Shown piece after piece: positions 12,759-28,059 of a stretch of 64,000 bases of DNA; the stretch's first letter is position 1; each line of letters starts with the position of its first letter. The DNA comes from Marinilactibacillus sp. Marseille-P9653 (GTDB taxonomy: Bacteria; Bacillota; Bacilli; Lactobacillales; Carnobacteriaceae_A), in the NCBI RefSeq assembly GCF_916618885.1, contig NZ_CAKAKH010000001.1, forward strand, positions 868,001-932,000, in the 5' to 3' direction. Under the pieces are notes generated by a model. The model made no database searches and was not told the origin of the DNA. It saw nothing but the letters and a program-made list of their open reading frames with translations. The position numbers and the translations under genes are program-made.

Positions 12759-13844
12759 TTATACACCAATTTTAGAAGGTTCAAGTACTTCAAGGTACTG
12801 CATAGCTTGATAAACATCATCGGGCGTAATATCTGGAATGACGAGGTTAAAGGTTTCTTTATCTGAAGCAGAAAAGGCAGCAATTTTTTCCATAGCCTCT
12901 TTAATGTCATGTGTTATGCCGAAATTTTTCAGAGAATGTGGGAAATCATTTTCCTTGTAAAAGCTCTGCAATTTATCGACTTCATCATATCTTTTACAAG
13001 CCGCTAGTTGAACTAAAATCCCGTAGGCTACCTTAACACCATGCTCGTAATCATGTGTTTCAGGAATCAATGACATACCATTATGCACAGCATGCGCGCC
13101 GGCCATTCTACCATATTCACCAGCGAAACCTCCGACTGTTCCGGCTATAGCTACAACAGCTTCTGCAACTTTTTCAAACGCTGGAGTGACTTCATGCGTC
13201 TCTATACTTTTTAGGGCTTCTTCGCTATTCTGAAGTAAAATTTCTTGAGTAAGTTTTGCAGTTTGGAGTCCTACAGAGACCATAGCTGGTAAAGTACCTT
13301 GAATATGATTCGTGATGCCTTCAGCTTCGTACCATTTAGCAAGTGTATCTCCAATACCGCCGGCAAAGTACTGTTTTGGTGACTCGACTAGTAAAGAGAG
13401 ATCCATAAAACAAAAAGAAGCAGATCGATTATAGTAGTCAACGCTCCTAAAAGTACCATCTGGGTGATATACAGCAGAGAGAGGGGTATAGGCAGCGCAA
13501 GTTCCCAAAACAGTCGGAATCGTTACGTATTCAATCCCTAACAAATCAGCAGTACCTTTAGCGGTATCGAGTACTTTCCCGCCACCGATTCCAACGATGC
13601 AATCGGCTCCTGGGCACTCTTTAGCTAGTCTGTTCATATCCTCGATGGATGCAGTATGATCATACTGCAGTACAGGAAAATCATTTTGACCAGGATAATG
13701 TTTTTCGAAAGCTTCAAACGATAACTCTCCAGTGATGATAACAGGAGACGTATACCGTTTCATTTTTTCATCAAAGTACACTAAAGCATTTTCCTGGCAG
13801 ATATATTGATCAGGGCCACTTCTTACGGTTTGACTTAGTTTCAT
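12759..13844 (-). CDS. iron-containing alcohol dehydrogenase family (HcxA/glycerol-dehydrogenase-like)
   Basis: A 361-aa NAD(P)-dependent dehydrogenase. The nucleotide-binding stretch GIGGGKVLDTAKG (about residues 85-97) is followed by an all-helical metal domain whose ligands are the Asp of GGIGDTLAKW, the His of GAHAVHNG and the second His of HDYEHGVKVAYG. Size and motifs fit the glycerol-dehydrogenase / hydroxycarboxylate dehydrogenase (HcxA, YbdH) branch, which in E. coli reduces 2-oxo acids. It lies 24 nt downstream of the BASS transporter, so both are probably under the same attenuator. A role in 2-oxo/2-hydroxy acid turnover is my inference. Confidence 0.8.
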   Translation of the reverse strand: MKLSQTVRSGPDQYICQENALVYFDEKMKRYTSPVIITGELSFEAFEKHYPGQNDFPVLQYDHTASIEDMNRLAKECPGADCIVGIGGGKVLDTAKGTADLLGIEYVTIPTVLGTCAAYTPLSAVYHPDGTFRSVDYYNRSASFCFMDLSLLVESPKQYFAGGIGDTLAKWYEAEGITNHIQGTLPAMVSVGLQTAKLTQEILLQNSEEALKSIETHEVTPAFEKVAEAVVAIAGTVGGFAGEYGRMAGAHAVHNGMSLIPETHDYEHGVKVAYGILVQLAACKRYDEVDKLQSFYKENDFPHSLKNFGITHDIKEAMEKIAAFSASDKETFNLVIPDITPDDVYQAMQYLEVLEPSKIGV

Positions 13845-13868: not shown

Positions 13869-14846
13869 TTATGATTGGACTTTTATAGGATGAACAGTCG
13901 AATGTTGGGTGGAATCTTTTTGATCACGTCTTCGGCATAGGTTAGCGTAGACGGTTCCAAATAATGTATGCACGATTGTTCCAGCTGCGGCAGCGAGTGC
14001 CGTTGCTGGTGTGAAGTGTGCTAAACCAAGATTTGCAGCCAAGCCTGTGTTTTGGAGACCGACTTCTATGGCAATGGTGCGAGTGGTCGGAATGTCTCGT
14101 TTCAATAATTTGCAAATTAGATAACTGATTCCGTATCCGCTCAAGTTATGAAGCCAGACAACAAAGAAAATCACTAATCCAGTGCTGAGTAAGTTTTGTT
14201 GATTAACGGATACAGTACCAGCGAGTACTAAAAGTACAGCGATAGAAGAGAAAGAAGGTAAAATCCTTTCAGCTTTTTCCGTGTGTCTGCCAAGGAAGTG
14301 ACTGATGACTAGACCAAGAAGGACAGGTAATAGGACAACTTGAATAATTGACTGGAACATTGTCCAGAAGTTAATATCCAGATAAGCTCCGCCATAAAGT
14401 GAAAGAATAAGCGGCGTTAGTAGTGGAGATAATAGCGTAGAAACAGACGTTGAGCTAATAGACAAAGGTAGATTTCCATTAGCTAGATAAGCAATCACGT
14501 TTGAAGAGGTTCCTCCAGGTACAGAACCGACCAATAAAAGACCTAAGGCAATTTCAGTTGGTAAGCCGAAAACAGCTGAAAGGGCTAAGGCAGATAGAGG
14601 CATAAAGACATACTGGGCGATGACGACTAAAAAGACTTGCCACGGCCGTCTTAGAACTTCATTGAAATCCGCTGGTTTCATTGTCAGCCCCATTGTGAAC
14701 ATAATGAATTGTAAGGTGTACGTCGTAATGCCTGCTGCCCATAGAAATAAATTAGGTAATAGTAACGCCAATACAGCTGTTGCAATAACAATCCATGATA
14801 AATACTTAGTAAAAGATTGATTTAATTGTTTTAAAAATATGAGCAT
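13869..14846 (-). CDS. bile acid:sodium symporter (BASS) family transporter
   Basis: A 325-aa protein with about ten membrane spans. LVGSVPGGTSSNVIAYLANG (about residues 106-125) and EVGLQNTGLAANLGLAHF are the crossover and Na+-site motifs of the BASS fold. Bacterial and plastid relatives move pantoate, pyruvate and branched or elongated 2-oxo acids; despite the name, bile acid is unlikely. The start is ATG 14846: GGAGG sits 9 nt upstream, whereas the upstream GTG (14861) overlaps that site. The next gene is an iron-type dehydrogenase. A leader peptide and terminator lie just upstream, suggesting control by branched-chain amino acid supply. Confidence 0.85.
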   Translation of the reverse strand: MLIFLKQLNQSFTKYLSWIVIATAVLALLLPNLFLWAAGITTYTLQFIMFTMGLTMKPADFNEVLRRPWQVFLVVIAQYVFMPLSALALSAVFGLPTEIALGLLLVGSVPGGTSSNVIAYLANGNLPLSISSTSVSTLLSPLLTPLILSLYGGAYLDINFWTMFQSIIQVVLLPVLLGLVISHFLGRHTEKAERILPSFSSIAVLLVLAGTVSVNQQNLLSTGLVIFFVVWLHNLSGYGISYLICKLLKRDIPTTRTIAIEVGLQNTGLAANLGLAHFTPATALAAAAGTIVHTLFGTVYANLCRRRDQKDSTQHSTVHPIKVQS

Positions 14847-14913
14847 AAAATGTTCCTCCACTGATCTATTTTTTTTGAATCGTTATCTATCTTTAAAAGG
14901 ATCTGTGGAAACA

Positions 14914-14950
14914 GAAAAGACCTCTCACTCTTTGATAGAATGAGAGGTCT
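14914..14950 (-). terminator. attenuator terminator before the BASS gene
   Basis: On the minus strand: a 14-bp stem (AGACCTCTCATTCT / AGAGTGAGAGGTCT, one G-U pair), 5-nt loop, then TTTT. It lies about 70 nt before the BASS start and after a small leader ORF, so transcription of the operon must pass through it. Confidence 0.85.
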
Positions 14951-15009
14951 AAGTCCCATTCACACTAAACCATGAATAGGACTAAACAACTGTAAATTTT
15001 TCTACAGTG
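14951..15009 (-). promoter_or_regulatory. leader RNA with mutually exclusive hairpins
   Basis: Minus-strand RNA. Hairpin 1 pairs GGGCTTAACACTGTA (it contains the leader peptide stop codon) with TACAGTTGTTTAGTCC. Hairpin 2 pairs AGTCCTATTCA with TGAATGGGACT. Both need the same AGTCC, so they cannot form together, and hairpin 2 abuts the terminator stem. This is the architecture of an attenuator; I could not work out the exact switching rule. Confidence 0.6.
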
Positions 15010-15063
15010 TTAAGCCCTGAGCATAATAATTAAAATGACTAAATTCAATGGTTGAGTGTTCAT
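15010..15063 (-). CDS. branched-chain-rich leader peptide (17 aa)
   Basis: ATG 15061-15063 preceded by AGGAAGTAGGAA; stop TAA 15010-15012. The peptide is MNTQPLNLVILIIMLRA: 4 Leu, 3 Ile and 1 Val among 17 residues, eight of them branched-chain and packed into ten consecutive codons. The stop codon sits in the 5' arm of a hairpin followed by a rho-independent terminator, as in ilv/leu attenuators. I infer that the ribosome senses charged Leu/Ile/Val tRNA to control the BASS transporter gene. Chance hydrophobicity is possible, but binding site, codon content and RNA context agree. Confidence 0.65.
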   Translation of the reverse strand: MNTQPLNLVILIIMLRA

Positions 15064-15245
15064 GAGGGTTCCTACTTCCTTTTTCAGATAAGTTATCACT
15101 TTTTATTAGTTATTTATTAGAATACAGATTTGAAGTAGAGGATGCAACCTTTAAAAGGTAATCTGAGTTTTTAAAGAGATAATTAGGAAATAGGAATATT
15201 GATAGCGTTTTATGTCACAAGTTCATTTATTAAATAAAGTAAATG

Positions 15246-15275
15246 AAAAAAGAGACCTTCCAATTAGAAGATCTC
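15246..15275 (-). terminator. terminator of the his operon
   Basis: Minus strand: GAGATCTTCT / GGAAGGTCTC stem (G-U pairs) with a 4-nt loop and a U-tract, 20 nt after hisIE. Confidence 0.75.
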
Positions 15276-26583: not shown

Positions 26584-26902
26584 ATCTCAGAATTGAATAG
26601 TATATCTGCATTGAGAAGGATAGTATGATCAGTTATCTTGCAAAGAGAGCTCTGTGAAGCTGAAAAGGAGCCAAGAAATTGATAGGAAAATGACCTTTGA
26701 GCAGAACAGTCGAATGGTTCAATGCCATCAGACTTTTCCGGGAGCACCCGTTATTGATGCATCAGTGACAGAGTCTAGCTTTTAAAGTATGGACTCATAC
26801 TGAGTAAGATCTATAGTGATATAGATAAATAAAGGTGGTACCACGCTAATATCAATTAACGTCCTTGAGTAAGAAGAAGATTCTTATTCAAGGACTTTTT
26901 TT
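26584..26902 (+). promoter_or_regulatory. T-box leader, probably methionine-specific
   Basis: A tRNA-sensing antitermination leader. Stem I with GTATGATCAG and AGAGAG, a specifier loop reading ATG (26690-26692) before ACCTTTGAG, and the T-box AAAGGTGGTACCACG (26831-26845) are all visible, followed by a terminator. The UGGU bulge would pair with an ACCA acceptor end, and the elongator tRNA-Met gene in this window has A as discriminator, which agrees. The downstream gene is a MetE-like methyltransferase, supporting control by uncharged tRNA-Met. Confidence 0.88.
26861..26902 (+). terminator. T-box-controlled terminator
   Basis: 15-bp stem (GTCCTTGAGTAAGAA / TTCTTATTCAAGGAC, one G-U), 5-nt loop, then seven T. 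It directly follows the T-box sequence and can be replaced by the antiterminator. Confidence 0.9.
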
Positions 26903-26931: not shown

Positions 26932-28059
26932 ATGCAAGAAGCAAACATTTGGAATCAAAAAGGACCATTTAAAGTTGATCATGTAGGGAGTTTATTGAGA
27001 CCGGAAAGATTGAAGAAAGCAAGATTAGCTTACGAAAAAGGGGAAGTTAGTAAAGATCAGTTAAAAGAAGTAGAAGACCAGGAAATCAGTAGAATTGTCA
27101 AAAAACAAATAGACATTGGATTAAAAGCTGTAACGGACGGAGAATTCCGTAGAGGTTGGTGGCACCTTGATTTCATGTGGGGGTTAAATGGAATAGAGCA
27201 ATATAAAAAAGACCACGGGTATCAATTCGCTGATGGTATCGAAAGTGAACCACTTGATGTTCGAACGACTGGCAAAATCAGTTGGAATACAAATCATGAT
27301 TTTCTGGAACATTTTAAGTATTTGAAGCAAATAGTAGGAACCGATGCTATTGCTAAATTATCAATCCCAAGTCCAAATCAGTTTTTACATGAAGGGATTA
27401 GAAGAGAAGAGCATTACGAAAGCGCAGAATTATTTGCAGAGGATCTTAAAAAAGTCTATATCGATGCAGTACAAGCTTTTTATGATCTTGGGTGTCGATA
27501 CCTTCAACTAGACGATGTATTTTGGGGGTTTTTAGCGGCTGATGGCATTAGAGGGGGAGTTGTTCCAGAAGAAGAATGGCTTCAGCTGAAACGACTATCT
27601 AAAGAAATGATTCAAGCCATTATTGAGCATAAACCAAAAGATCTTATACTAACGACACATGTTTGTCGTGGAAACTACAAATCTTCATATGCTGCTGCAG
27701 GTCCTTATTATCCAGTGGCTAAGGAACTCTTCGATGACATTTCTTATGATGGTTACTTTTTAGAATACGACGATGACCGTTCCGGCGATTTTGGTCCACT
27801 TGAACATTTCTCAGGAGAAGGTAAAGTTGTATTGGGATTAATGACCTCTAAGTTTCCAGAACTAGAAGATATTGAGGTACTGAAAAATCGAATTAATGAA
27901 GCCGCTCAGTATGTACCTAAAGAAAAAATTTGTATTAGCCCGCAGTGTGGTTTTGCTTCTACTGAAGAAGGAAATCTACTTACAGAAGAACAGCAATGGG
28001 CAAAGTTATCACACTTGATCAATCATATCGATGAGATATTCTCGAATAAACTTGTATAA
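26932..28059 (+). CDS. MetE-like cobalamin-independent methionine synthase family protein (YxjG/YxjH type)
   Basis: 375 aa, corresponding to the catalytic C-terminal half of MetE, as in Bacillus YxjG/YxjH. DHVGSLLRP near the start, the VTDGEFRRG folate/homocysteine stretch, and zinc ligands in THVCRGN and ISPQCGFAS are visible. It should transfer a methyl group to homocysteine or a related thiol; the true methyl donor for this short class is uncertain. The T-box upstream ties it to methionine starvation, and AGGAGG precedes ATG. cutC follows. Confidence 0.88.
   Translation: MQEANIWNQKGPFKVDHVGSLLRPERLKKARLAYEKGEVSKDQLKEVEDQEISRIVKKQIDIGLKAVTDGEFRRGWWHLDFMWGLNGIEQYKKDHGYQFADGIESEPLDVRTTGKISWNTNHDFLEHFKYLKQIVGTDAIAKLSIPSPNQFLHEGIRREEHYESAELFAEDLKKVYIDAVQAFYDLGCRYLQLDDVFWGFLAADGIRGGVVPEEEWLQLKRLSKEMIQAIIEHKPKDLILTTHVCRGNYKSSYAAAGPYYPVAKELFDDISYDGYFLEYDDDRSGDFGPLEHFSGEGKVVLGLMTSKFPELEDIEVLKNRINEAAQYVPKEKICISPQCGFASTEEGNLLTEEQQWAKLSHLINHIDEIFSNKLV

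Follow-up and report, generated by a model that had tools for sequence, protein, structure and literature searches.

Ribosome-mediated attenuators that respond to branched-chain amino acids (BCAAs) are known in Firmicutes from ilv-leu operons. In Marinilactibacillus sp. Marseille-P9653, a leader of this kind seems to precede a BASS-family transporter gene and a dehydrogenase gene, which raises the questions of which amino acid it would sense, in which direction it would switch, and what the two genes contribute. According to the initial annotation, such control is not known to have been described for BASS transporters, and we likewise found no paper on an attenuator in front of one within the open-licence literature. 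New is the controlled operon, the transporter–dehydrogenase pair; the leader type itself is already known. Coordinates refer to the window, the whole 64,000-nt stretch of DNA that was analysed.

Leader elements and operon structure

On the minus strand, a leader of about 270 nt lies between the terminator of the histidine operon (15275..15252) and the transporter gene (14846..13869). Along it follow a Shine-Dalgarno (SD) sequence, a 17-codon ORF, three evident hairpins and a terminator of 14 bp that runs into a U-tract. Its features are as follows.

15119..15147, minus strand: probable promoter (TTGCAT 15147..15142, 17-nt spacer, TATTCT 15124..15119; read by eye)
15071..15080, minus strand: leader-peptide Shine-Dalgarno sequence AGGAAGTAGG (sequence reading)
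15010..15063, minus strand: leader peptide ORF MNTQPLNLVILIIMLRA (ATG at 15063, stop TAA 15012..15010; Ile-run peptides at the equivalent position in relatives)
14978..15018, minus strand: predicted hairpin A:B (arm A AGGGCU 15018..15013; arm B AGUCCU 14983..14978)
14952..14983, minus strand: predicted hairpin B:C (AGUCCUAUUCA / UGAAUGGGACU; B 14983..14973, C 14962..14952)
14938..14961, minus strand: putative antiterminator C:D (GAAUGGGA 14961..14954 / UCUCAUUC 14945..14938)
14908..14950, minus strand: intrinsic terminator D:E with U-tract (14-bp stem 14950..14918, then TTTCTGTTT)
13869..14846, minus strand: BASS-family transporter (SBF), PanS/ASBT_NM branch (Pfam PF01758, E 3.9e-42)
12759..13844, minus strand: iron-ADH / glycerol-dehydrogenase-like dehydrogenase, second gene of the operon (PF00465)

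The individual elements proposed in the initial annotation were all recovered: the ORF with its ribosome binding site, in which 8 of 17 residues are Leu, Ile or Val (4 Leu, 1 Val, 3 Ile); the TAA within the 5' arm of hairpin A:B (15018..14978); a second hairpin competing for AGUCC, as B pairs either with A or with C; the terminator ahead of the transporter start (14950..14918 versus ATG 14846); and the BASS-family gene itself. A fourth pairing, C:D, had been overlooked and is the likely antiterminator. The predicted folding energy of the 265-nt leader is -76.2 kcal/mol, compared with -51.2 +/- 4.7 kcal/mol for shuffled sequences (z -5.3, 0/200), and the leader exceeds chance because 17 other loci show the peptide, the placement of the stop codon and each of the four pairings again.

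The probable promoter was missed by a strict consensus scan; a similar TTGCAAT...TGTATTCTAAT lies 5' of the leader in other Marinilactibacillus loci. Just 5' of the leader SD, at 15080-15100 (minus strand), there is a CodY-like box with 3-4 mismatches, present at the same position in all four Marinilactibacillus loci; the CodY box search returned degenerate sites only, and this one is too degenerate for a claim.

Conservation of the leader among BASS relatives

The transporter was used as query against 100 relatives and a named genome collection. Its closest relatives come from Marinilactibacillus species (about 75-82% identity), and the leader is present at all 17 of the best named BASS relatives (L018 to L034, 56-82% identity), which belong to Carnobacteriaceae, Aerococcaceae, Streptococcus, Oceanobacillus and a Tissierellia MAG. 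The more distant BASS genes L009, L010 and L035 have no such leader. Within the operon, transporter and dehydrogenase genes are 24 nt apart in the window, and the two adjoin in 13 of the 18 loci. In Dolosicoccus paucivorans (L026:1525-3590), two tandem BASS genes stand behind one Ile leader, with no dehydrogenase adjoining.

The comparative alignment suggested as a check in the initial annotation showed the small ORF, its branched-chain codons and the alternative stems to be conserved in relatives. All 18 loci contain a putative leader ORF with SD, ATG, 15-19 codons and clustered Ile codons, and the SD upstream of the ATG is purine-rich in nearly all relatives. The encoded peptides include MKSQLNLVIIITLRA, MTAQLQQIIIIITLRA, MTRQSYSSLIIIIRFRA and MFHTNSSIIIIIKNRTSSL, as well as MTVYAEQPVRNNNIIIIII, MTLSFSPQAIIIIIRSRI, MTVSNTKAVIIIKIRT and MHLFHSSIIIIIRTRTSII, and most relatives have uninterrupted runs of 3-6 ATT/ATC codons. 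Within these runs ATT and ATC replace each other, with GTC, CTC or TTA now and then; such synonymous exchanges and conservative Val/Leu replacements indicate that selection acts on the residue. In several relatives, another tiny ORF, equipped with an SD of its own, lies 3' of the attenuator terminator and 5' of the transporter start (L019:3942, L023:3935, L024:3921, L028:3933, L030:3921; for example MLQQIRNIQNLHFRG and MESEIFALP), which the window does not contain.

Five segments and their alternative pairings

The 18 leaders share five segments, A to E, with four overlapping pairings: A:B (AGGRCUU with AAGUCCUAUUC), B:C (C being GAAUGGGAC), C:D (D being the 5' arm of the terminator) and D:E. 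The hairpins are mutually exclusive, and the last is the intrinsic terminator. The Dolosicoccus leader, which is divergent, shows joint changes in C and D (GAAAUAGGA with UCCUAUUUC). In a covariance-model alignment of 43 leaders, standard pairs fill 89% of cells for A:B, 92% for B:C and 83% for C:D, compared with at most 59%, 52% and 55% in the respective slid controls; since A:B and D:E were used in building the model, the alignment leans to those pairings, while B:C and C:D lie outside it. Five C:D pairs have changed on both sides, a number reached in 0 of 500 shuffles and in one slid control. Covariation beyond shuffles is modest because each base serves two overlapping pairings, which freezes the sequence.

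Isoleucine as the probable cue

The initial annotation proposed that the leader senses Leu, Ile and Val jointly. Its attenuator is supported by the comparison, but the equal standing of the three amino acids is not: the conserved codons are mainly Ile, with Leu and Val as occasional substitutes, and the predicted cue is therefore mainly isoleucine rather than Leu, Ile and Val alike. Joint sensing is favoured by the mixed composition of the window peptide and by M. kalidii L020, where two TTA codons occupy the corresponding position; the window peptide has just three Ile codons, one set apart by TTA, which counts against reading it as an Ile attenuator. The other 16 relatives, however, mostly carry Ile codons 7-23 nt before arm A, and Leu runs instead precede leu genes. 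We consider joint sensing unlikely.

Predicted polarity of the switch

The putative ORF, its Ile codons, the four predicted pairings and the spacing between them are borne out by comparison of the loci. The first Ile codon lies 16-23 nt upstream of arm A in 17 of the 18 leaders, the exception being L020, in which Leu and Ile codons are nearer to arm A. The stop codon falls between -4 and +14 nt relative to the start of arm A in every leader. From this spacing we infer that a stall gives readthrough. When isoleucine is short, the ribosome would stall on the Ile codons and leave arm A free, so that A:B forms and C is released; C:D would then form and delay the terminator D:E, and polymerase would enter the transporter and dehydrogenase genes. 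When isoleucine is plentiful, the ribosome would reach the stop codon inside or beside arm A and cover it; B:C would form, leaving D free for the D:E terminator, and transcription would end.

Snapshot folds of the RNA exposed before arm E, assuming that the ribosome covers about 14 nt 3' of the A-site codon, agree with this geometry. For a ribosome stalled on the first Ile codon, the folds predict A:B in 15 and C:D in 14 of the 18 leaders; for one at the stop codon, they predict B:C in 15. In the stall-state folds of L021, L022 and L033, B:C is predicted to persist, which counts against the model. No other element matches the terminator D:E in stability at equilibrium (about -16 to -28 kcal/mol, compared with about -8 to -18 kcal/mol for C:D), and the antitermination choice must therefore be kinetic. 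A leader at a distant BASS gene, L011, has a three-segment form in which B:C is itself the U-tracted terminator; here too, the same spacing would give readthrough upon stalling.

With the opposite polarity, a stalled ribosome would mask arm A and cause termination, and isoleucine shortage would turn the operon off. In most leaders the last Ile codon lies 7-10 nt before A, and a stall there would indeed cover A partly; stalls on the first Ile codons would leave it free, however, the three-segment leader with its equal spacing would give the reverse outcome, and the experimentally studied leaders of Listeria and S. aureus are induced by starvation, all of which makes this reading very unlikely. 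Even less probable is a ligand-binding riboswitch, an alternative kept in the initial annotation, or a T-box with an incidental small ORF: either would explain the strong leader structure and the conserved sequence around AGUCCUAUUC...GAAUGGGAC, but neither is needed, as no Rfam family matches the leader at gathering threshold and no riboswitch or T-box family comes near it, the T-box model RF00230 has no match in the leader although the scan detects a T-box elsewhere in the window, the overlapping pairings account for the conserved bases, the putatively translated Ile run is the most conserved element, and the codon run is one of Ile or of Leu depending on the gene that follows, a change of which a ligand pocket would have no need.

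Our preferred reading is thus ribosome-mediated attenuation of transcription, with charged tRNA-Ile as the main signal and readthrough as the outcome of a stall (probability roughly 0.88); isoleucine shortage should thus switch the operon on. The T-box found elsewhere (RF00230, 110 bits; 26602-26869, plus strand) lies 5' of a methionine-synthase-like gene (26932..28059) and is probably a methionine T-box. A PyrR match at the leader (33 bits, relaxed threshold) was attributed to chance, its first stem being stretched over peptide and loops.

A wider family of putative attenuators

Classical four-segment attenuators are those of the trp, his and ilvGMEDA operons of enterobacteria. The present leader shares with them the principle that a ribosome stalled on cognate codons chooses between alternative hairpins. 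In E. coli trp, however, the stalled ribosome masks segment 1 and absence of translation leads to termination, whereas here the stall would leave A free and readthrough is predicted without translation.

A covariance model built from the BASS-gene leaders, R1, gave matches in 40 genomes when run against a sample of 400 from the class. The genes 3' of these matches include ilvD-ilvB (in many Staphylococcus-like and other genomes), ilvBNC, ilvE with a dehydrogenase, LivJ-like binding proteins, leuABC, a thiolase and a PanE-family reductase; the ilvB, ilvD, ilvN and leu names come from translated N-termini, and ilvC in genome G030 was confirmed separately. Codon identity tracks gene function, with Ile runs before ilvD, ilvE and LivJ-like genes and Leu runs before leuABC (MKNTAVISTTTFLLLLL, MNSTKQTLTFLNLLLL). 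Two matches of the class search, L105 and L106, look like chance, and the other R1 match of the host genome, which scores 34.7 bits and lies ahead of a CTP synthase gene (C1:471454), was rejected: it covers mainly a terminator and has no Ile peptide. In G030, from the same order, the same attenuator type precedes ilvE and then an iron-ADH dehydrogenase (L090:701-3080) with 27% identity to that of the window; ilvC is present in this genome and ilvD gave no match. At L104:1893-3087, an Ile/Val leader (MFQFRTIKVVVILIS) precedes a PanE-family reductase, which hints that this enzyme may act on branched-chain 2-keto acids.

The Staphylococcus-like ilvD leaders are found by the Rfam rli60 model as well as by R1; they are so labelled because their leader peptide agrees with a published description (PMC5794164). 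In the class-wide search, 24 genomes exceeded the rli60 threshold, these ilvD leaders among them. The window leader scores 38.3 bits against rli60 (RF02414; E 0.001 per genome), below the 60-bit curated threshold, and is the sole match in its genome among the matches listed at the looser E-value of that search; searching the host genome alone at a stricter E-value gave no match.

Rli60 of the Listeria monocytogenes ilv-leu operon (RF02414; PMC5864092) resembles the window leader in its BCAA-codon peptide, its stop near an AGGACUU...AAGUCCUAUU hairpin, its terminator and its ribosome-mediated attenuation, which was shown by mutation (PMC5864092). It differs in preceding biosynthesis genes, in having four segments (antiterminator 2:3, terminator 3:4) and in needing translation for expression, whereas the window leader precedes a transporter–dehydrogenase operon, belongs to an Ile-run peptide family and has five segments. 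Mutants in the rli60 ATG or RBS show reduced ilvD transcription (PMC5864092); the readthrough that our model predicts without translation contrasts with this and counts against the model. The S. aureus ilvD leader, whose attenuation is supported by suppressor mutations and reporters (PMC5794164), shares a peptide with IIILL and an AGGACU / AAGUCCUAUUU / GAAUGGGACUU core (L065, L066) and is found by both R1 and rli60; its target is biosynthetic, and its published antiterminator pairs GAAUGG with the U-tract. In L065 and L066, the conserved C:D pairing suggests an antiterminator other than the published one. Placed on our model, the S. aureus suppressor mutations fit two registers and are given no weight here. 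The window leader very probably shares ancestry with both of these leaders, and it would work like them, with experimental support for attenuation in both.

A possible role in isoleucine salvage

Profile searches of the host genus, Alkalibacterium and Atopococcus found ilvE but neither ilvC nor ilvD, with 14 of 14 control genomes positive for the latter two; these bacteria therefore need exogenous isoleucine or its 2-oxo acid. The operon is not limited to auxotrophs, since leader-bearing genome G059 possesses ilvC and ilvD. At L033, a BCAA ABC transporter follows the operon.

The transporter matches PF01758 with 144.5 bits (gathering score 24.3) and ASBT_NM (PDB 3zuy/8oyf) with E 1.3e-64, and falls below the cut-offs of TIGR00841 and the PanS models. 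The contacts of ASBT_NM to the 2-hydroxy acid, Asn265/Gly267, are retained as N266/G268. Characterised relatives handle small 2-hydroxy or 2-oxo acids, namely pantoate and ketopantoate, and ASBT_NM binds pantoate, not ketopantoate (PMC10645422). The dehydrogenase is below cut-off for both PRK09423 and PRK10586 (YbdH-like).

Given the presence of ilvE and the absence of ilvC and ilvD, we infer that a branched-chain 2-oxo or 2-hydroxy acid may be salvaged for isoleucine; its uptake and interconversion seem the most economical reading. The ilvE and iron-ADH pair of G030, the PanE-family reductase at L104, the ABC transporter at L033 and the retained 2-hydroxy-acid contacts also favour this reading. 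The operon would import a small acid of this type, at best guess from the pair 3-methyl-2-oxovalerate / 2-hydroxy-3-methylvalerate; the dehydrogenase would interconvert oxo and hydroxy acid, and IlvE would transaminate to isoleucine. E. coli YbdH/HcxA, which we take to reduce 2-oxo acids, would fit the dehydrogenase role, as would lactococcal PanE, which presumably reduces branched-chain 2-keto acids. With its substrate guessed from context, this proposal stands at somewhat below even odds.

The transporter might instead carry pantoate or ketopantoate for CoA synthesis, with Ile control as a general response to amino acid shortage, and its closest characterised relatives, PanS and ASBT_NM, do transport or bind pantoate (PMC10645422). 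The score against the PanS equivalog NF047939 (ketopantoate/pantoate) is 226 bits, however, at a cut-off of 400; Asn295, which contacts the terminal hydroxyl of pantoate, is replaced by Thr294; pantoate comes from the valine branch, yet the codons are Ile; and CoA needs no dehydrogenase partner. This makes pantoate transport an improbable function.

Implications

Isoleucine salvage would offer more tentatively still, when joined to the wider family, a picture of an operon that serves bacteria lacking ilvC and ilvD by taking up and oxidising branched-chain 2-hydroxy/2-oxo acids released by neighbours, under an Ile-sensing attenuator of a five-segment BCAA type found across Bacilli. If true, this largely uncatalogued family would unite Rli60, the Staphylococcus ilvD leader and the ilvE, leuA and LivJ-like leaders. 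Leaders of the type represented by Rli60 and the S. aureus ilv attenuator are spread over many Bacilli families and have a five-segment core in common. The proposed alternative antiterminator, C with D, lends itself to testing in leaders of the S. aureus kind. For the transporter–dehydrogenase pair, so far uncharacterised, the leader would supply a regulatory signal, isoleucine shortage, and narrow the substrate to a few testable compounds.
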